Below the pieces are notes generated by a model. That model did no database searches. It was not told where the DNA came from and worked only from the letters and a program-made list of their open reading frames with translations. The position numbers and the translations under genes are program-made. Source: Kutzneria buriramensis (lineage in GTDB: Bacteria; Actinomycetota; Actinomycetes; Mycobacteriales; Pseudonocardiaceae). From it: a stretch of DNA of 64,000 nucleotides. The DNA is taken from NCBI RefSeq assembly GCF_003387475.1, contig NZ_QUNO01000027.1, forward strand, positions 1 through 64,000, given 5' to 3'. Shown one piece after another: positions 2,395 through 58,452 of the stretch. How positions within the stretch are numbered: position 1 is the stretch's first letter; every line of letters begins with the position of its first letter.

Positions 2395-3092
2395 TGACGC
2401 TCGGGGACCCGCGGCCGGCGCTGCCGTCGCTCGGGCTGAGCCCGCTCAGCCCGGTGACGAGCCGCGCCGACCTGGTGGCCGAGGCGATCCGGACGGCGGT
2501 GCTGTCCGGCAAGATCCGGCCCGGGGACACGCTGGTGGAGCGGCGGCTGGCCGCGGAGCTGGGCGTGTCGAAGACGCCGGTCCGGGAGGCGTTGATCATG
2601 CTGGCGTCGAGCGGCCTGGTGGTGCTGACGCCGACCCGCGGCACGACGGTGCGGGTGCTGGACGCCGACGACCTACGCAAGATCCAGGAGGTCCGGCTGC
2701 TGCTCGAGCCGTGGGCGGTGGCCGCGACGACGCGGCTGGGGTCTCCCGATTCGGTGACCCGGGCGCGGGCGGCGCTGGCCCGGTCGGCGGCGCACCTGGA
2801 CACCGTGGATCACGGCGAGCTGAGCATGGCCAACCGGGACTTCCACCGGGCGCTGTATGCGGGCTGCGGCAACGAGTTCGTGGTGGCGAGCCTGGACGAG
2901 GTGCGGGACCTGGCCGCGCTGGCGGCGGTGAGCCTGCTGTGGCCGCACTGGCCGACGTGGCGGGCCGAACACGTGGAACACGAGGGCATCCTCAAGGCGG
3001 TGGCCGCCGGCGACGCCGAATCCGCGCAACGCCTGACCCGCCAGCACATTGAGTTGTCCGGCCACCGAGCCGCCGACGCCATGACCGGCTGA
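2394..3092 (+). CDS. GntR family (FadR/FCD subfamily) transcriptional regulator
   Basis: The 232-residue protein has an N-terminal winged helix (LVAEAIRTAVLSGKI, then ERRLAAELGVSKTPVREAL) and an all-helical FCD effector domain with the metal-ligand pattern typical of the family (ANRDFHRAL, then a C-terminal HxxxH-like segment). FCD regulators usually respond to small organic or sugar acids. It starts at an ATG overlapping the gatD stop. The facing aldolase gene at 3213-4118 has a perfect TGGTATACCA palindrome in its promoter, a typical operator for this subfamily, so local control of that gene is the likely job. Why it travels with murT-gatD is unclear. Confidence 0.85.
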   Translation: MTLGDPRPALPSLGLSPLSPVTSRADLVAEAIRTAVLSGKIRPGDTLVERRLAAELGVSKTPVREALIMLASSGLVVLTPTRGTTVRVLDADDLRKIQEVRLLLEPWAVAATTRLGSPDSVTRARAALARSAAHLDTVDHGELSMANRDFHRALYAGCGNEFVVASLDEVRDLAALAAVSLLWPHWPTWRAEHVEHEGILKAVAAGDAESAQRLTRQHIELSGHRAADAMTG

Positions 3093-3093
3093 A

Positions 3094-3212
3094 CCCCGCG
3101 AGTCGCGCTCAGCACCAGACCGAATGTGGGTTTCGGGCGAATCTGAGACCTGAAGCTCGTTTCTGCCTAAAACCGTATTTCGGTGTGTCTGTGAGCGTGA
3201 CTCGCGGGGGTT
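3094..3212. repeat. Palindromic intergenic element, copy 1
   Basis: The element fills the whole gap between the stop codons of two convergent genes. Its left end is CCCCGCGAGTCGCGCTC and its right end is GAGCGTGACTCGCGGGGG, nearly perfect inverted repeats. Inside each end is a motif like CACCGAATGTGGGTTTC, again in inverted orientation. Related copies lie at 38288-38452 and 47551-47717, with degenerate or half copies at 51755-51926 and 56356-56405. It may act as a two-way terminator. Confidence 0.75.
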
Positions 3213-4118
3213 TCACTCGGCCACGGACTTGAGCCAGGCGGTTACTTCGGCCTTGCCGGAGTCGGGGAGTTCGCTGATCGGCGGACGGACGGTACGGGTG
3301 CAGAGGTCGAGCTGCGCCAGCGCTTCCTTGACGACGGTGACGTTGTCGGCGCTGCCGTTCGCGGCGCGCAGATCCTCGAACGGCTTGAGCCGTTGCCACA
3401 GGTCACGGGCGCCGGGCCGGTCACCGGCGGACAGCGCCGCGAAGAATCGCAGCGACAGTTCCGGCGTGACATTGGCCAGGCCGGAGGTGAATCCCTCGGC
3501 GCCCACGGGCCAGAAGAACGGGGCCCAGGTCTCGGCGAGGCCGCACACCCAGACCAGGCGGTCCTCCTCGACGGCGGCGACCGCCGCGCCGAAGGCGACC
3601 GGGTCCGGCACGGCGTACTTGACGCCGACGAAGTTGGGGGCGACGCGGGCCAGCTCGGCCACCGCGCCGGCGGGGATGTGCGGGCTGCGCAGGTAGCAGA
3701 CGACGCCCAGTTCCGGGACGGCGTCCGCGACGGCCCGGTGGTAGTCGACCCAGCCCGCGGCCGACAGGTAGGGGTGCACCGGCTGGTGGACCATGATCGC
3801 GCCGGCGCCGGCACTGCGTGCGGTGCGCGCCGACGCCACGGCGGTCTGCACGTCGTATCCGACGCCGGCGACCACCAGCGCGCGGCCCGCGGCCTCCTCG
3901 ACGGTCAACTCCAGCGCCTGATCCCGCTCGACGGCGGTGAGCGAGTAGAACTCGCTGGTGTTGCCGTTCGGGGTGACCACGTCGATCCCCGCGTCCAGGG
4001 TCCGCCGCAGCACCGACCGATAGCCGGGGCCGTCGACCTGCCCGGCGCCGTCGAACGGGGTGACCGTGATCATCACCACTGAGCGCAGCGCCCGCTTGAC
4101 GTCCTCCAGCATCTCCAC
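3213..4118 (-). CDS. Dihydrodipicolinate synthase (DapA) family aldolase/lyase
   Basis: A 301-residue TIM-barrel class I aldolase of the DapA/N-acetylneuraminate lyase superfamily. It shows the substrate loop TPNGNTSEFYSLT (GNTxE in place of GTTGE), the conserved tyrosine in VCYLRSPH, and the Schiff-base lysine in FVGVKYAV. The exact substrate cannot be read; relatives act on pyruvate adducts of sugar acids or hydroxyproline breakdown products. GTG at 4118 is preferred over ATG at 4112 because AGGAGG sits 5 bases before it. It faces a GntR/FCD regulator and has a GntR-type palindrome 18-27 bases upstream of its start, which suggests substrate-induced catabolism. A housekeeping dapA is less likely given this context. 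Confidence 0.8.
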   Translation of the reverse strand: MEMLEDVKRALRSVVMITVTPFDGAGQVDGPGYRSVLRRTLDAGIDVVTPNGNTSEFYSLTAVERDQALELTVEEAAGRALVVAGVGYDVQTAVASARTARSAGAGAIMVHQPVHPYLSAAGWVDYHRAVADAVPELGVVCYLRSPHIPAGAVAELARVAPNFVGVKYAVPDPVAFGAAVAAVEEDRLVWVCGLAETWAPFFWPVGAEGFTSGLANVTPELSLRFFAALSAGDRPGARDLWQRLKPFEDLRAANGSADNVTVVKEALAQLDLCTRTVRPPISELPDSGKAEVTAWLKSVAE

Positions 4119-4135
4119 CCTCTCCTCCTGGTATC

Positions 4136-4145
4136 TGGTATACCA
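4136..4145. promoter_or_regulatory. Candidate GntR/FCD operator TGGTATACCA
   Basis: A perfect 10-base palindrome with the GTATAC core common to FadR/FCD operators lies just upstream of the aldolase ribosome-binding site. The convergent GntR gene at 2394-3092 is the natural candidate binder. The pairing is inferred. Confidence 0.5.
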
Positions 4146-4320
4146 ACATAGACGACCAGCTCATCGGCGGCAATAAGCGACGTCGAATGGCGCATTGCGG
4201 GACGCGTTCGGCGTGCACCTATCCGTGGTATTTCTCGCTTGGTCCGGCTCCGAAACCGGTGGCGATGCGATACGGTGGGAATGAGCTTGTGCTAATAGTC
4301 ATACGTCAGGTGGAGCAACC

Positions 4321-4653
4321 ATGGCACAGAAGACGATCGTCGAACTCGTCGACGATCTGGACGGCGGTGTTGCCGCGGAGAGCGTCGCATTCGGCCTCGA
4401 CGGCGTCGAGTACGCGATCGATCTGTCCACTGAGAACGCGAAACGCCTGCGCGATTCCCTGTCCGCGTATGTGGACAAGGCACGCAGGGTGGGCGGCCGC
4501 AAGCAGCGCGCGATCGGCCGGCCCGCCGGTCGCACCGGCGACAAGGCGCAGAACCAGGCCATCCGGGAATGGGCGCGCAGCCAGGGCGAGAAGATCTCGG
4601 ACCGCGGCCGCATCCCGTCCGAACTGGTGACGCGTTTCCAGGCCGCGCATTGA
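4321..4653 (+). CDS. lsr2: Lsr2, nucleoid-associated xenogeneic silencer
   Basis: A 110-residue Lsr2. The N-terminal oligomerisation domain begins MAQKTIVELVDDLDGG and continues through FGLDGVEYAIDLS. The C-terminal DNA-binding domain contains IREWARSQGEKISDRGRIP, with the RGR minor-groove hook. Lsr2 binds AT-rich DNA and silences acquired genes and secondary-metabolite clusters. It sits immediately left of the siderophore locus, but as a global protein this need not mean local control. GC-rich hairpins directly follow the stop codon and probably end its transcript. Confidence 0.95.
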   Translation: MAQKTIVELVDDLDGGVAAESVAFGLDGVEYAIDLSTENAKRLRDSLSAYVDKARRVGGRKQRAIGRPAGRTGDKAQNQAIREWARSQGEKISDRGRIPSELVTRFQAAH

Positions 4654-4676
4654 GCTCGTAGCTAGGGGTGAGGTGT

Positions 4677-4695
4677 GCCGGCGGAGAGCGCCGGC
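4677..4695 (+). terminator. GC hairpin after lsr2
   Basis: GCCGGCG (4677-4683) and CGCCGGC (4689-4695) form a 7-bp stem with loop GAGAG, 24 bases after the lsr2 stop. More GC hairpins, such as GGGGC-TCTC-GCCCC, follow in 4710-4800. No T-tract is present. The rest of 4654-4834 holds no recognisable gene. Confidence 0.5.
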
Positions 4696-4834
4696 CACAT
4701 CTCGCTCAATGTGTCTTGCGGGGCTCTCGCCCCACACCCCAAGCCAGGGCGGGCTTCGCCCCCCTGGACCCCCCTTCGGGCTCGCTTCGCTTCGCCCCTG
4801 CACCTCCAGGCCGTAGTGCCGCCCGCCGCCATAA

Positions 4835-4853
4835 TTAGTCTAGCCTTACCTTA
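4835..4853. promoter_or_regulatory. Iron box (IdeR/DtxR type) upstream of the ABC exporter
   Basis: TTAGTCTAGCCTTACCTTA matches the DtxR/IdeR consensus TTAGGTTAGGCTAACCTAA at 14 of 19 positions by hand count. It lies 27 bases before the start of the first exporter subunit, so iron-dependent repression is expected. Confidence 0.7.
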
Positions 4854-4879
4854 CTTGGGACTGGGTGAGGGAGGCTTGG

Positions 4880-6550
4880 GTGAGCACGACCGGACGGGAC
4901 GTCCTCCGCCGTTCGATCGCCGGGCAGGGGCGGTCGGTGGCGCTGGCATCGCTGCTGACGGCGGGCCACCAGGGCGGCGAGGCGCTGGTGCCGGTGGTGA
5001 TCGGCGTCGTGATCGACCAGGCCGTCGCGGGCGCCTCGGCGCTGACGCTGGTGGCCTGGCTCGCGGTGCTGGGCCTGCTGTTCGCCGCGCTGTCGACCAG
5101 CTACCGGCTGGGCGCGCGGTTCGCCGAACGCGCCGCCGAACGCGCCGCCCACGAGCTGCGCCTGGACATCGCGCGCCGCGTGCTGCACCCCGCCGGCGGC
5201 ACGGAGGCCGGCAACCTCGCCGGCGAACTGGTCAGCATCGGCACCTCGGACGCCAAACGGGTCGGCACCGTCAACAACGTGCTGCCGTTCGGTGTTGCCG
5301 GCATGGCCGGTCTGCTCGTGACGGCGATCGTGCTGCTGACCCGCTCAGTCCCGCTCGGACTGCTGGTCCTGCTCGGCACTCCCCCGCTGCTCTACCTCGC
5401 CCACCTGATCGGCAAGCCGCTGGAGCGCCGCAGCGAGGCCGAGCAGGAACGGTCGGCGTTCGCCTCCGGCGTCGCCGCCGACCTGGTCGCGGGGCTCCGG
5501 GTGCTCAAGGGCGTCGGGGCCGAGCGCGCCGCGATCGACCGGTACCGCCGGACCAGCCGGGATTCGCTGCGGGCAACACTGCGAGCCGCACGGGCCCAGG
5601 CGTGGCACGACGGTTCGCTGCTGGCGCTGACCGGGATCTTCATCGCGGTGGTCGCGCTCGTCGGCGGAAACCTCGCCGCGGCGGGACAGATCAGCATCGG
5701 CGACCTGGTCGCCGCGGTGGGCCTGGCGCAGTACCTGATCACGCCGTTCTCGATCTTCTCGTGGGTCAACGGCGAGCTCGCGCAGGGCCGGGCGTCGGCC
5801 GGGCGCATCGCCGACGTGTTGGCTGCGCCGCCCGCGGTTGGCACCGGCGCCCGTGCGCTGCCGGTGCCCTCGACCGGACACGTCCAGGTGCGGGGGTTGA
5901 GCCGCGGTGCCCTTCGCGACGTCGAGTTCGAGGCCAGGCCGGGCGAACTGCTGGGCGTCGTCGCCACCGATCCCGCCGCCGCGACCGACCTACTCGATTG
6001 TCTGGGGCGGGCGGCGGATCCCTTGTCCGGCAGCGTTTCCGTCGATTCGATCGATCTGTCCACCGTGGATTCTCAACGGGTTCGCGAAGTGGTGCTGGTC
6101 GCCGCGCATGACGCCGACCTGTTCGCCGGCACGATCGTCGAGAACGTCTCCACCGGGCCTCTGGTCGAGGACGCCCTGACCGCGGCCGCCGTGGACGAGG
6201 TCGCCAGCGCTTTGCCCGACGGCGTGCAGACTGCCGTCACCGAACGGGGGCGGTCGCTGTCCGGCGGCCAACGGCAACGCGTCGCGTTGGCTCGGGCGCT
6301 CGCCGCCGACGCTCCGGTGTTGGTGCTGCACGACCCGACCACCGCCGTAGACACCGTCACCGAGGCCCGGATCGCTGCCGGTCTCGCCTCGATGCGGCGC
6401 GGCCGTACAACGATCCTGGTCACCACCAGCCCCGCGCTGCTGTCCGCGACCGACCGGGTCGTGCTCCTCGACGACGGACGTGTTGTCGACCAGGGCAGTC
6501 ATGCCACGCTCGCCGTGCGGGCCGACTACCAGGCGGCGGTGCTGGCATGA
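4880..6550 (+). CDS. ABC exporter half-transporter with degenerate Walker sites, siderophore locus
   Basis: About 556 residues: six-helix exporter membrane domain (residues roughly 1-300), then a nucleotide-binding domain. The ABC signature LSGGQRQR is intact, but Walker A is lost (VVATDPAAATDLL has no GxxGxGK), and Walker B reads VLVLHDPTTAVD, with His for the Asp and Asp for the catalytic Glu. This half therefore supplies only a signature motif to the dimer. GTG at 4880 is preferred over GTG at 4865 because GGGAGG sits 5 bases before it. The stop overlaps the partner gene by 4 bases. Its iron box and neighbours suggest siderophore export, or import by IrtAB-like transport; direction cannot be read from sequence. 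Confidence 0.85.
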   Translation: MSTTGRDVLRRSIAGQGRSVALASLLTAGHQGGEALVPVVIGVVIDQAVAGASALTLVAWLAVLGLLFAALSTSYRLGARFAERAAERAAHELRLDIARRVLHPAGGTEAGNLAGELVSIGTSDAKRVGTVNNVLPFGVAGMAGLLVTAIVLLTRSVPLGLLVLLGTPPLLYLAHLIGKPLERRSEAEQERSAFASGVAADLVAGLRVLKGVGAERAAIDRYRRTSRDSLRATLRAARAQAWHDGSLLALTGIFIAVVALVGGNLAAAGQISIGDLVAAVGLAQYLITPFSIFSWVNGELAQGRASAGRIADVLAAPPAVGTGARALPVPSTGHVQVRGLSRGALRDVEFEARPGELLGVVATDPAAATDLLDCLGRAADPLSGSVSVDSIDLSTVDSQRVREVVLVAAHDADLFAGTIVENVSTGPLVEDALTAAAVDEVASALPDGVQTAVTERGRSLSGGQRQRVALARALAADAPVLVLHDPTTAVDTVTEARIAAGLASMRRGRTTILVTTSPALLSATDRVVLLDDGRVVDQGSHATLAVRADYQAAVLA

Positions 6551-8298
6551 GCCGTGAGCTGCTGCCCGTCGCCGACGGGCGTCGAATCCGTGCCGTCGTC
6601 GGCGAACTTCTCGGTCGCGCCAAGGGCCGCACCGTCGCCGCGTTCGCCATTCTCGTCGGGGCCACGGCGATCGGGCTGCTCACCGCCCGCCTGCTCGGTG
6701 GCGTGGTGGACCTGGTCGTGGCCCACCGGCCGGCCGCCGAACTGGTGCCGCCGGTGGTCGGACTCGTCGTGGTCGCCGTGACGCAGGCGGCCGCGGCCGC
6801 CGTCGGCGTGTCGCTGGTGGCACGGCTGGGCGAGACCATCCTCGCCGAGCTGCGTGAGCGATTCGTCGAACGGGCCCTGGGCCTGCCGCTCGACCAGCTC
6901 GAACGGGCCGGTTCCGGCGACCTCACCGCCCGTGTCACCAATGACGTCTCGGTCGTCGCCGACGCCGTCCGGCGGGCGATGCCCGAGCTGGGGCGATCGC
7001 TGCTGACCGTCGTGCTGACGTTCATGGCCCTGGCCGTGCTCGACTGGCGGTTCCTGCTGGCCGCGTTGGTGGCCGTGCCGATCCAGGTCTACACCGTGCG
7101 GTGGTACGTGCCGCTGGCCAAGCCGCTGTACGCCAGCCAGCGAGAAGCCGTCGGCAGTCAACAACAGCAGCTGCTCGACACCATCGGCGGCGCGCGGACC
7201 GTCCGCGCTTTCCGACTGGGTGATGCCCATCTGGACCTGGTCGGGCAACGTTCTTCGGTTGCCGTCGACTTGGCGCTGCGGGGCGTCCGGCTCGTGACCC
7301 GCTTCTACGCCCGCATCAACCTCGCCGAATTCGTCGGCCTGTCGTCGATCCTGGCCGTCGGTTTCCTGCTCGTCGGCGCCGGTTCGGTGAGCGTCGGCGT
7401 GGCGACGGCCGCGGCGCTGTACTTCCACAGCCTGTTCGGGCCCATCGGCACCGTGCTCGCCATGGTCGACGACGCCCAAGCGGCCGGCGCGTCGCTCGCC
7501 CGGATCGTCGGCGTCGCCGATCTGCCCGCGGCGGTCGAACCGGCTCGGGTTGCACGGCCGGTCGACACCTCCGTCAAGACTTCGGGGGTCGGTTTCGCCT
7601 ATGTGGACGGTCATCCCGTGCTTCGTGGCGTCGATCTGGAGGTCGCGGCCGGGGAGCGGGTGGCGCTGGTCGGTGCGAGCGGCGCCGGCAAGACGACGCT
7701 GGCGAAGTTGATCGCCGGAATCCACGAGCCGTCCGCCGGGTCGATCATGCTCGGCGGGGTTGCGTTGGAGGAACTGGGCGTCGCGGGCACCCGGCGGACG
7801 GTGGCGTTGATCAGCCAGGAGGTGCACGTCTTCGCCGGCTCGCTGGCGGACGATCTGCGACTGGCGCGGCCTTCGGCCACCGAGGACGAAATGCTTGCCG
7901 CGCTGGAGAAAGTCGGCGCATTGTCCTGGGTGGACAGTTTGCCGGACGGCCTGGCGACGGTTGTCGGCGAGGGCGGGCATCAGCTCACCGTCACACAGGC
8001 TCAGCAGCTGGCGCTGGTTCGTTTGGTGCTGGCCGATCCGCCCGTGGCCATTCTCGACGAGGCCACCGCCGACGCCGGCAGCGCCGGCGCCCGGGTGCTG
8101 GAATCCGCCGCGTCGGCGGCCTTGGCGGGGCGGACCGCTTTGGTTGTCGCACACCGGCTCACGCAGGCGGTGGCGTCGGATCGCGTTGTGGTGCTGGACG
8201 CCGGGGCGGTGGTGGAATCCGGAACGCATGAGGAGCTGGTTGCTGCCGGCGGGCAGTACGCGAGGCTCTGGGCGGCCTGGTCGGGGCAGCGGGGATAG
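6547..8298 (+). CDS. ABC exporter half-transporter, catalytic partner of the preceding gene
   Basis: A 583-residue half-transporter with an exporter-type membrane domain (residues about 20-320) and a nucleotide-binding domain. Walker A is canonical (LVGASGAGKTTLAKL) and so is Walker B (VAILDEATAD), with catalytic Glu. The signature is degenerate: LTVTQ replaces LSGGQ. Together with the previous subunit, one ATP site is complete (this Walker A/B with that LSGGQ) and the other is dead on both faces, as in asymmetric heterodimeric exporters. It starts at an ATGA overlap. A strong hairpin follows the stop. Confidence 0.88.
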   Translation: MSRELLPVADGRRIRAVVGELLGRAKGRTVAAFAILVGATAIGLLTARLLGGVVDLVVAHRPAAELVPPVVGLVVVAVTQAAAAAVGVSLVARLGETILAELRERFVERALGLPLDQLERAGSGDLTARVTNDVSVVADAVRRAMPELGRSLLTVVLTFMALAVLDWRFLLAALVAVPIQVYTVRWYVPLAKPLYASQREAVGSQQQQLLDTIGGARTVRAFRLGDAHLDLVGQRSSVAVDLALRGVRLVTRFYARINLAEFVGLSSILAVGFLLVGAGSVSVGVATAAALYFHSLFGPIGTVLAMVDDAQAAGASLARIVGVADLPAAVEPARVARPVDTSVKTSGVGFAYVDGHPVLRGVDLEVAAGERVALVGASGAGKTTLAKLIAGIHEPSAGSIMLGGVALEELGVAGTRRTVALISQEVHVFAGSLADDLRLARPSATEDEMLAALEKVGALSWVDSLPDGLATVVGEGGHQLTVTQAQQLALVRLVLADPPVAILDEATADAGSAGARVLESAASAALAGRTALVVAHRLTQAVASDRVVVLDAGAVVESGTHEELVAAGGQYARLWAAWSGQRG

Positions 8299-56500: not shown

Positions 56501-57133
56501 GTGACCGATTTCCGCCTGCCTGACTGGGCCGTTCCGTCGGAACCGCGGGCAACAAAGGTCGTCAATCAAAAGATCGACATTCGCGATCAGTGGTGGTCGG
56601 CGGAAATCAACCGGCTCGGGCTCGACGGCACGCCGCCGGCGTCACCGTCGCTCACCCGCGCCGAGGTCTGGTCTCCCGACGACGACGTGTTCTCCCTCCT
56701 GTGGCGGGCCCTCGCGTGGGGATCGGGTCCTCACCTCCGAAACAACAAGCGCCGCCTGGACAGCATCGCTGCGGACCCGGACGGAGCGAGGAAACTCCTC
56801 GAGGCCGCACGGGAAGAGGCGCGGCGCGACCCCGAAGGCGCATACCAGCTGCTGATGCCCAACGGCCGGGCCGCGATCAAGTACCTGGGCCCGGCTTTCT
56901 TCACCAAGTTCCTGTACTTCGCGGGCGGCGGCGATCCACTTCACCGCTGCCTGATTCTCGACGAGCGGGTCGCGACCTCCGTATGCGATCACTGCGGCGC
57001 GACCTGGTTCCCGATCAGGGGCTGGTATCCGGAGACCTACGCGTGGTACTGCGACCAACTGGCTCAGGAGGCCAAGACCCGCGACCGCGCCGCCGACGAG
57101 ATCGAACTCCTCCTGTTCAAGGGGCACGAATGA
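56501..57133 (+). CDS. Uncharacterised protein, possible OGG-fold (8-oxoguanine glycosylase-like)
   Basis: A 210-residue protein. The stretch IKYLGPAFFTKFLYFAGG resembles the helix-hairpin-helix region of a family described as 8-oxoguanine DNA glycosylase OGG-fold proteins in actinobacteria; this recall is moderate and no catalytic Lys-Asp pair can be confirmed by eye. A CDHCG motif follows further on (ATSVCDHCGATWFP), possibly half of a metal site. Start GTG 56501. It overlaps the next small gene by 4 bases (ATGA), so the two are co-translated. Confidence 0.6.
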   Translation: MTDFRLPDWAVPSEPRATKVVNQKIDIRDQWWSAEINRLGLDGTPPASPSLTRAEVWSPDDDVFSLLWRALAWGSGPHLRNNKRRLDSIAADPDGARKLLEAAREEARRDPEGAYQLLMPNGRAAIKYLGPAFFTKFLYFAGGGDPLHRCLILDERVATSVCDHCGATWFPIRGWYPETYAWYCDQLAQEAKTRDRAADEIELLLFKGHE

Positions 57134-57326: not shown

Positions 57327-57355
57327 GACCCCCGGACATGGCCAGTCCGGGGGTC
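57327..57355. terminator. Hairpin between the small gene and the tRNA-like RNAs
   Basis: GACCCCCGGAC (57327-57337) pairs with GTCCGGGGGTC (57345-57355), 11 bp with a 7-base loop. It can end both the plus-strand small-gene transcript and the minus-strand RNA 2. Confidence 0.8.
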
Positions 57356-57362
57356 GAGAGGT

Positions 57363-57519
57363 CCGCCCAATTGGCACACCGGCACGTTTAAGGGGACGGG
57401 TCACGCTCAGGTCGCCGCGCTCTTCCGTTGAGCTACGGCCGCAGGTGGCTCGGCCGGCGGGATTTGAACCCGCACCTCGGCGAGGCTCGCCCGTCCCCGG
57501 GCGATCCGGTGTTCGGCGG
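57363..57519 (-). ncRNA. tRNA-like RNA 2, YrlA/Y-RNA-type, with Ro60-motif-like end
   Basis: Read 5' to 3' on the minus strand. End stem: CCGCC (57519-57515) with GGCGG (57367-57363); then GAA opposite TTG; CACCGG (57511-57506) with CCGGTG (57382-57377); GGGGACGGG (57498-57490) with CCCGTCCCC (57400-57392). Inside is a tRNA core in permuted order: anticodon-type stem CGCCG/CGGCG (57482-57478, 57417-57413), T-arm GCGGG-TTCAAAT-CCCGC, acceptor CGGCCG/CGGCCG closed by loop AGCCACCTG, TA at 8-9, and D-arm GCTC-AACGGAA-GAGC. GCCGAA (57517-57512) fits the GNCGAA Ro60-binding motif of bacterial Y RNAs. No normal tRNA can be made because the ends lie at the anticodon side. Confidence 0.75.
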
Positions 57520-57525
57520 CAATGC

Positions 57526-57666
57526 TGAAGCTGGAGCGAGAGTCTGAGGTTGATACCCGGGCTGCCTCTGCCGGTTGGGCTACCCCGGCTCGGTGGTGCC
57601 GGGAGGAGGACTCGAACCTCCACTGTGACCGGGTGTGGTCAGGCTGACGACTCAGTTTCAGCTTCA
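57526..57666 (-). ncRNA. tRNA-like RNA 1, permuted tRNA fold of YrlA type
   Basis: Minus strand. End stem TGAAGCTG (57666-57659) with CAGCTTCA (57533-57526); GAGTC (57653-57649) with GACTC (57544-57540); inner stem ACCCGG (57634-57629) with CCGGGT (57560-57555). The tRNA core follows: T-arm GGAGG-TTCGAGT-CCTCC (57621-57605), acceptor 3' strand TCCCGGC (57604-57598), closing loop ACCACCGA holding ACCA, acceptor 5' strand GCCGGGG (57589-57583, one G-U pair), TA, and D-arm GCC...GGC with GG in its loop. It lacks an obvious GNCGAA motif. It starts right behind two GC hairpins that follow the protein gene at 57718-58452 and may be processed from that transcript. Confidence 0.72.
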
Positions 57667-57706
57667 CGCCCCGGTGTCGGGGCGCGCCCCCGCGCTCCAG
57701 CGGGGG
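57667..57706 (-). terminator. Two consecutive GC hairpins after the 244-residue protein gene
   Basis: Hairpin 1: CCCCCGC (57706-57700) with GCGGGGG (57693-57687). Hairpin 2: CGCCCC (57684-57679) with GGGGCG (57672-57667). They start 12 bases after the stop at 57718 and end on the base before RNA 1. They may terminate the mRNA, or mark a processing boundary if the RNAs are co-transcribed. Confidence 0.6.
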
Positions 57707-57717
57707 AGTCTCGAAGG

Positions 57718-58452
57718 CTACCCGAACAGGTAGCCGAACACGGCGTCGCCGACGCGCTGGTCGGTGACCTCGAGGGCGTTGGCCTCCTCGCGGGCGAACT
57801 TCACCGCCTGCTGGAGCTTCTCGACGCGGTCGACGAGCTCGTTGACGCGCCGCGCGGGCAGCGCGCCGGAGAACTTGACGGTGGTCCAGTAGCCGACGGG
57901 CACGTCCTCGTAGTAGACCTCGACCTGAGCCGGGTGCTTCTCGGTGGCCTCGGCCTTGACGTGGTTGCGCGGCACCTTCTTGGTGCGGATGGTCCGCACC
58001 TGCTCGGTGCGCCAGTAGTCGGCGGACTCCTCGAAGCTCCAGGACTCGGCGGCGTCGAGCAGCGGCAGCTTCTTGACGAAGGTGTGCAGATCGACCAGCT
58101 GCTTCTCGAGGAACAGCAGGTAGGCCACGGGCACGTCGGACAGCAGCGTGCGGCCGTCGACGACGACGTCGGCCTTGGCCACGCAGTTGGCCCAGTCCTT
58201 GGTCGCGGTGACGTCGAACAGCCGCGTCAGCACGGACGCTGTCCGCCGCAGCACGTCCTCGGTCTTGACCTGGACCCGCGTGGACTCGGGCGGCAGCACC
58301 TCGCCGTCCTCGTCCTTCGGCTGGTAGGTGCGGGAGATGCCGGCGAGCAGCGCCGGCTTCTGCAGGGCGTGGTGCGCGTCGGTGAGGTCCCGCAGCGCGC
58401 CGCTCTTGACGCCCTTCTCGACCGCGATGATCTGGTTCAGCTTCGTCGTCAT
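57718..58452 (-). CDS. Uncharacterised 244-residue protein encoded beside the tRNA-like RNAs
   Basis: Start MTTKLNQIIAVEKGVKSG; the protein is mostly helical and mixed-charge, with LLSDVPVAYLLFLEKQLVDL in the middle, a VEVYYEDVPVGYWTTVKFSG strand pair, and a helical end. No catalytic motif, signal peptide or membrane segment is visible. I believe similar proteins occur in actinobacteria and their phages as a DUF family, but cannot name it with certainty. Its position directly upstream of two Y-RNA-like RNAs on the same strand raises a link to RNA repair or RNA quality control; this is inference from context only. Confidence 0.7.
   Translation of the reverse strand: MTTKLNQIIAVEKGVKSGALRDLTDAHHALQKPALLAGISRTYQPKDEDGEVLPPESTRVQVKTEDVLRRTASVLTRLFDVTATKDWANCVAKADVVVDGRTLLSDVPVAYLLFLEKQLVDLHTFVKKLPLLDAAESWSFEESADYWRTEQVRTIRTKKVPRNHVKAEATEKHPAQVEVYYEDVPVGYWTTVKFSGALPARRVNELVDRVEKLQQAVKFAREEANALEVTDQRVGDAVFGYLFG

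Follow-up and report, generated by a model that had tools for sequence, protein, structure and literature searches.

Two RNAs with tRNA-like parts lie in tandem on the minus strand (57362-57669) of the window, the whole stretch of 64,000 nucleotides from Kutzneria buriramensis that was analysed, and a DUF7873 protein gene lies just upstream of them. What kind of RNA are they, and with which protein do they work? The initial annotation proposed circularly permuted tRNA-like RNAs of the YrlA type as Y RNAs of Ro60 (Rsr), and raised another protein as the alternative partner. This alternative fits our results best. On the minus strand, the order is DUF7873 gene, 5′ hairpin, RNA1, RNA2, and 3′ hairpin, with the following parts:

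57718..58452, minus strand: DUF7873 protein gene, 244 aa (Pfam PF25283, E 2e-120), the proposed RNA partner
57687..57708, minus strand: 5′ hairpin, loop CUGGAGCG complementary to CGCUCCAG in the RNA1 3′ tail (suggestive only)
~57524..57669, minus strand: RNA1, permuted tRNA-like with basal stem (covariation, n = 28; Rfam YrlA 22.1 bits)
57605..57621, minus strand: RNA1 T-arm, perfect 5-bp stem
57583..57604, minus strand: RNA1 acceptor hairpin (3′ strand 57598-57604, ACCA, loop, 5′ strand 57583-57589)
57564..57580, minus strand: RNA1 D-arm, loop with GG (alignment)
57362..57520, minus strand: RNA2, YrlA-type permuted tRNA-like with three basal stems (covariation, n = 11; covariance model R1)
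57457..57473, minus strand: RNA2 T-arm (alignment)
57436..57456, minus strand: RNA2 acceptor hairpin (3′ strand 57450-57456, 5′ strand 57436-57442)
57419..57433, minus strand: RNA2 D-arm (covariation)
57383..57392, minus strand: RNA2 basal stem, internal loop, conserved side CUUAAACGUG (motif counts over loci)
57327..57355, minus strand: 3′ hairpin, apical loop UGGCCAU with the conserved GGNYA (loop counts)

A putative 8-oxoguanine glycosylase-like gene (PF21790; plus strand, 56501-57133) lies downstream of the RNA locus and is convergent with it.

Structure of RNA1 and RNA2

Each RNA is composed of a T-arm, the acceptor 3′ strand, a short loop, the acceptor 5′ strand, two bases, and a D-arm. 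The order is that of a circularly permuted tRNA, and the two ends of each RNA pair in the place normally taken by the anticodon loop. Both RNAs lie where they were first annotated and are slightly longer than described there; the 9-bp stem (GGGGACGGG/CCCGUCCCC) and the 6-bp stem (CACCGG/CCGGUG) assigned to RNA2 are present. Two open frames (86 and 137 aa) overlap the RNA1/RNA2 region, and the coding reading was rejected, as neither frame has a Pfam match. The RNA1 tails contain KLKL-like codons, but their spacing shifts the frame between loci (L136, L160, and L164), and they were set aside.

Folding energy fails to separate the two RNAs from shuffled sequences (z-scores of 0.18 and -1.22), and minimum free energy was rejected as proof of structure. 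The structures rest on covariation, which the initial annotation had called for and which is present in both RNAs. In an alignment of 11 RNA2 sequences differing by more than 20%, 28 of the 47 pairs have changes on both sides and 90.6% of cells are paired. The covariation score is 0.477, compared with 0.203 (sd 0.018) for shuffled and at most 0.133 for slid alignments, and none of 500 shuffles reached any of the measures, with the structure being derived in part from the alignment that was scored. Double changes occur in all seven acceptor pairs. The ends of RNA2 pair in a basal stem, of which helices 1-3 are paired in 91-96% of cells; the anticodon-like helix is paired in only 61% of the alignment. 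For RNA1, 28 sequences with a detectable first T-arm were used, leaving out 2 of the 30 prepared. Here 17 of 25 pairs (not counting the anticodon-like helix) show double changes, 90.2% of cells are paired, and the covariation score is 0.399 versus 0.148. The acceptor again has double changes in 7/7 pairs. The basal helix of RNA1 is 76% paired, and one basal pair is open in 22 of the 28 sequences.

The same arrangement recurs at other DUF7873 loci. A script requiring a T-arm, a downstream acceptor, and a D-arm finds at least one permuted unit in 93/93 bacterial loci (two in 65, one in 28; some genomes are counted twice, via two collections) and in 73/94 viral loci (two in 34, one in 39, and none in 21). 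The controls give 0/187 for opposite strands and 0/935 for shuffles, the latter being a mild control because shuffles seldom keep any T-arm. For relatives, a contig scan with the DUF7873 protein gave at least 546 hits, of which the best 80 were kept. The viral scans gave 86 loci; loci L234-L313 of the second viral scan are outside all counts. Together with covariation of the T-arm, acceptor, and D-arm, the unit test bears out permuted tRNA-like RNAs with YrlA architecture. Because 28 of the 93 bacterial loci have one unit only under this strict test, two heads may not always be needed. Some Streptomyces (e.g., L038) have kept the RNA1 tails and lost the head.

The basal parts and flanking hairpins carry conserved motifs as well. 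The CUUAAACG-type motif in the internal loop of RNA2 is found in 79/93 bacterial and 57/94 viral loci, compared with 2/93 and 13/94 on the opposite strand and 1 bacterial and 7 viral in the next 650 bases. The AUCGAC side of this loop was seen in alignments and not counted. Among stretches after RNA2 that hold a stem of at least 8 bp, the 3′ hairpin has GGNYA in its loop in 92 of 98 distinct cases (64/64 bacterial, 28/34 viral), compared with 34/588 other hairpins; the stem sequences vary. In addition, the 5′ element contains a stretch complementary to the RNA1 3′ tail (UCGCUCC). At several loci the two vary together (GAGC/GCUC, GGAC/GUCC, and GGGC/GCCC), which suggests that they pair over a long range as a pseudoknot. 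The longest complement averages 5.52 nt compared with 4.31 (sd 0.14) in 200 mononucleotide shuffles, over the 104 of 187 loci in which the tail motif was found, related Streptomyces included.

Linkage to DUF7873 and spread of the cassette

The RNAs are tightly linked to DUF7873. R1, a covariance model built from RNA2, scores 151.7 bits at this locus by construction. In a search of 296 class genomes with R1, all 24 RNA2 hits of at least 73 bits lie directly downstream of DUF7873, on the same strand, with ~155-430 nt between the end of its match and RNA2. Strict filters and a limit of nine scored candidates per genome mean that this search may have passed over weaker or lower-ranked RNA2 copies. 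Conversely, DUF7873 matched 25 genomes, and 24 of them have a strong RNA2 hit. The exception (G253:C27:2942-3232) has two DUF7873 fragments and no RNA2 hit, a possible joint decay of gene and RNA. At two other loci the arrangement differs: in L143 the two RNAs and DUF7873 are on opposite strands, and in L194 the RNA pair comes before DUF7873 and ends in its own hairpin. The RNAs can thus be transcribed separately from the gene and act in trans.

The best predicted structure of DUF7873 is locally confident (mean pLDDT 92.1, pTM 0.68; the five models range from 65.5 to 92.1) and has long helices and a long β-hairpin arm. The fold search of the model against the PDB gave no match at E ≤ 0.001, so RNA binding is not supported by the fold. 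A single viral fold match (E 3.7e-4, TM 0.21) was judged meaningless. Sequence searches of PHROGs, NCBIfam, and the PDB returned nothing useful for DUF7873.

DUF7873 is present in 6 of 60 nearer relatives and 25 of 296 class genomes, and among 100 phylum genomes only the centre genome itself matched; the distribution is thus patchy. The cassette occurs in Kutzneria and in many Streptomyces and Lentzea genomes. DUF7873 is also found in four plasmid records, including one of 11.9 Mb.

Phages of Arthrobacter, Gordonia, and Rhodococcus carry the cassette too, as do, with weaker matches, phages of cyanobacteria and Klebsiella. By tblastn, DUF7873 was found in 73 phage records. In Mimi, Phendrix, NiceHouse, and Ziko, it lies among or beside tRNA genes, and the RNA cassette accounts for the unannotated gaps of ~410-530 bases after DUF7873 in the first three. 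One or more tRNA or tmRNA genes lie within 32 of 60 IMG/VR loci, as a raw count. R1 matches at E ≤ 1e-6 in 73/85 viral DUF7873 loci; 12/85 are without such a match. Weaker R1 matches were obtained for cyanophage Pam2 (43 bits) and Klebsiella phage KpLz-2_45 (31 bits, E 3e-4). In Vibrio phage D505, R1 found nothing; the unit script detected a single T-arm followed by a 7-bp acceptor, and no D-arm fitting its pattern.

Some viral loci have features of their own. ARAGORN predicts tmRNAs adjoining DUF7873 in L198 (1485-1882) and L200 (6026-6428). In L185 (IMG/VR, 3001-3732), the DUF7873 frame has one in-frame stop under table 11, a decayed or recoded copy. In L144 (IMG/VR, 3001-6629), DUF7873 and its RNA are followed by a TROVE match ~2.7 kb downstream of DUF7873, the two systems being side by side; weaker R1 matches (5083-5602, at most 46 bits), one of which overlaps a predicted tRNA-Pro, lie between the DUF7873 RNA and TROVE.

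Relation to Rsr, YrlA, and tRNA genes

The assignment to the YrlA class stands as far as architecture goes, and the Rfam YrlA model aligns end to end with both RNAs, but the scores (32.2 bits for RNA2, 22.1 bits for RNA1) are below the cut-off of 69 bits. At the gathering score, Rfam has no match anywhere in the window. As first noted, the window has no TROVE gene; the genome-wide search that had been suggested gave one match, a 497-aa open frame on another contig (contig 10). Just upstream of this Rsr gene is a YrlA-like RNA that is also under the Rfam cut-off, at 50.3 bits. Rsr has its own adjoining YrlA-like RNA, indicating that the Rsr-linked Y RNA lies elsewhere in the genome.

RNA1 and RNA2 might still be ordinary Y RNAs that serve the unlinked Rsr in trans, for example by tethering it to PNPase, with DUF7873 as an accessory. 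The YrlA architecture and the Rsr gene of this genome agree with that reading, as does co-occurrence: among the 296 class genomes, TROVE matched 37 and DUF7873 25, and 17 have both compared with 3.1 expected, indicating, by a statistic that ignores phylogeny, that DUF7873 and Rsr are associated. Likewise, among 14 named control genomes, Deinobacterium chartae alone has either gene, and it carries the two together. However, ten of 29 genomes with intact DUF7873 (seven class genomes plus G004, G006, and G047) have no detectable Rsr by TROVE, and a search of these ten with the Rsr protein of this genome found none either. TROVE is also missing from all seven phage genomes searched whole; it was found in 6 of 48 virus records with DUF7873. 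The CCGA/UUG near the end stem resembles the Ro60 site, and the initial annotation read GCCGAA/UUG in this way. However, one of the genomes without detectable Rsr (G006, locus L002) still has both RNAs in full, with the CCGAA/AAUUG end motif, so the motif says little for Ro60. The basal stems differ as well: the best R1 match in 30 Rsr loci has 49.3 bits, and of 43 matches, 32 are confined to the middle (head) part. We therefore consider service to Rsr unlikely. The view of RNA1 and RNA2 as Y RNAs of Rsr is unsupported, since they are linked to DUF7873 and persist without detectable Rsr.

A different possibility is that the units are permuted tRNA genes, whose transcripts would be cut and joined at the anticodon into functional tRNAs with DUF7873 as the processing enzyme. 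The permuted order, the 7-bp acceptors, the D- and T-arms, and the position among phage tRNA genes are in accordance with this, and CCA is encoded in 88 of 267 units (it could also be added after processing). However, CCA is not general, the stem continues beyond the anticodon position, and basal stems and loops are conserved in their own right. In addition, among units with a 5-bp anticodon-like stem, U is found at position 33 in just 22 of 173, an approximate test, since it takes the best-fitting stem register. Decoding tRNAs are thus unlikely, and processing into tRNAs is improbable. Ordinary tRNA genes, an alternative raised in the initial annotation, were not found by ARAGORN on either strand of the window. 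The RNAs might also be a cis-acting 3′ UTR that stabilises or autoregulates the DUF7873 mRNA, consistent with their usual place past DUF7873 on the same strand in 24 genomes and with the strong 3′ hairpin. The pair on the other strand in L143 and ahead of the gene in L194, together with conserved tRNA-like heads that a UTR would not need, make this quite improbable. A functionless relic of tandem tRNA genes stripped of their outer halves is very improbable, given the strong covariation, including basal stems foreign to tRNA, and the 24/24 linkage to one protein. Tandem tRNA-Asn genes do give the same middle arrangement, with R1 matches of 52-57 bits (L324, L325, and L326, the three Streptomyces-group cases inspected of 14), which calls for caution in searches and offers a plausible origin of such RNAs; as an evolutionary origin, a relic of this kind may apply.

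In each of these three loci, two identical tRNA-Asn genes lie ~2.5 kb in, with the permuted arrangement between them. A third Y-RNA family in Streptomyces, considered on the basis of 14 weak full-length R1 hits (48-57 bits), was rejected, the three inspected being tandem tRNA-Asn.

YrlA/Y RNA (RF02553) with Rsr resembles the present system in its permuted head, its end-paired basal stem, and its tandem copies. The two differ in that RNA1 and RNA2 partner DUF7873 instead of rsr, that RNA2 has a three-part basal stem with the AUCGAC/CUUAAACG loop, that an RNA1-RNA2 pair is followed by a GGNYA-loop hairpin, and that the RNAs are present without detectable Rsr and under the Rfam cut-off. Two such RNAs in a row had been called unusual. 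Tandem Y-type RNAs are, however, known from the Salmonella rsr-yrlBA-rtcBA operon (available text of PMC7790460), and several Rsr genes (L111, L112, L119, L121, and L123) have at least two YrlA-like matches nearby, the number being four at both L111 and L112.

Permuted tRNA genes of red algae and archaea likewise place the 3′ half before the 5′ half, joined via the acceptor end; the units described here differ in mostly lacking U33, in having extended stems for an anticodon loop, and in CCA not being general. tmRNA also combines a noncoding RNA having a tRNA-like part with a small partner protein, and carries a tag reading frame. In contrast, the present heads are closed, without a free 3′ end, and there are two. 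GOLLD RNA, another structured RNA of actinobacteria, is also found in phages. Its architecture differs from that of RNA1 and RNA2, and Rfam scans of the window and 14 DUF7873 loci gave no GOLLD match. For mycobacteria, the available text of PMC9569102 names GOLLD, and yrlA as a possibly acquired RNA in some of them.

A proposed particle of DUF7873 and the paired RNA

The locus probably encodes a ribonucleoprotein of DUF7873 and a paired noncoding RNA that works by tRNA mimicry. DUF7873 would act with the paired RNA, each half of which is a permuted tRNA-shaped head on a basal stem. In YrlA, as described in the available part of PMC8394870, the basal stem tethers Rsr, and the tRNA-like head is a binding site for PNPase and a target of tRNA-modifying enzymes. 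By analogy, DUF7873, or a multimer of it, may hold the conserved basal parts, namely the internal loop of RNA2 (AUCGAC/CUUAAACG), the repeat-rich RNA1 tails, and the terminal hairpins. The heads, which have no anticodon loop and a closed acceptor end, may dock on proteins that recognise tRNA elbows and acceptor stems, serving as tether or decoy. We infer both the binding of DUF7873 to the RNA and the docking of the heads from this parallel. Such a particle would resemble the Ro60-Y RNA complex, with an unrelated protein replacing Rsr.

A precedent for the tether exists in a Y RNA and PNPase (PMC8394870 and PMC8058203, as far as available), and inhibition of a tRNA nuclease by the YrlA head is an idea raised in PMC7790460. 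Phage tRNAs have been proposed to counter host defences that deplete tRNA (PMC10264068, available text). Given its position among phage tRNA genes, the cassette is an attractive candidate for a decoy, sensor, or tether in this conflict, and DUF7873 and its RNAs may have a role in tRNA-directed stress or phage-host conflict. A bolder and more doubtful proposal is that RNA1, RNA2, and the two hairpins form a single two-headed mimic of ~380 nt, which with DUF7873 would be a new class of ribonucleoprotein, traded between actinobacteria and large phages and used in tRNA-directed conflict as decoy, sensor, or shield against tRNA-cleaving factors.

In the open-access literature we found no paper on DUF7873, and the literature matches listed contain no description of the DUF7873-RNA pair; earlier notice in key Y RNA papers is possible. 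The literature covered presents the tRNA-mimic Y RNAs of bacteria in connection with one protein, Rsr. If the proposal of a DUF7873 ribonucleoprotein is true, a second protein lineage has its own pair of permuted tRNA mimics, and tRNA mimicry by permuted RNAs would be a recurrent and mobile strategy. DUF7873, a family of unknown function, gains a testable RNA partner.
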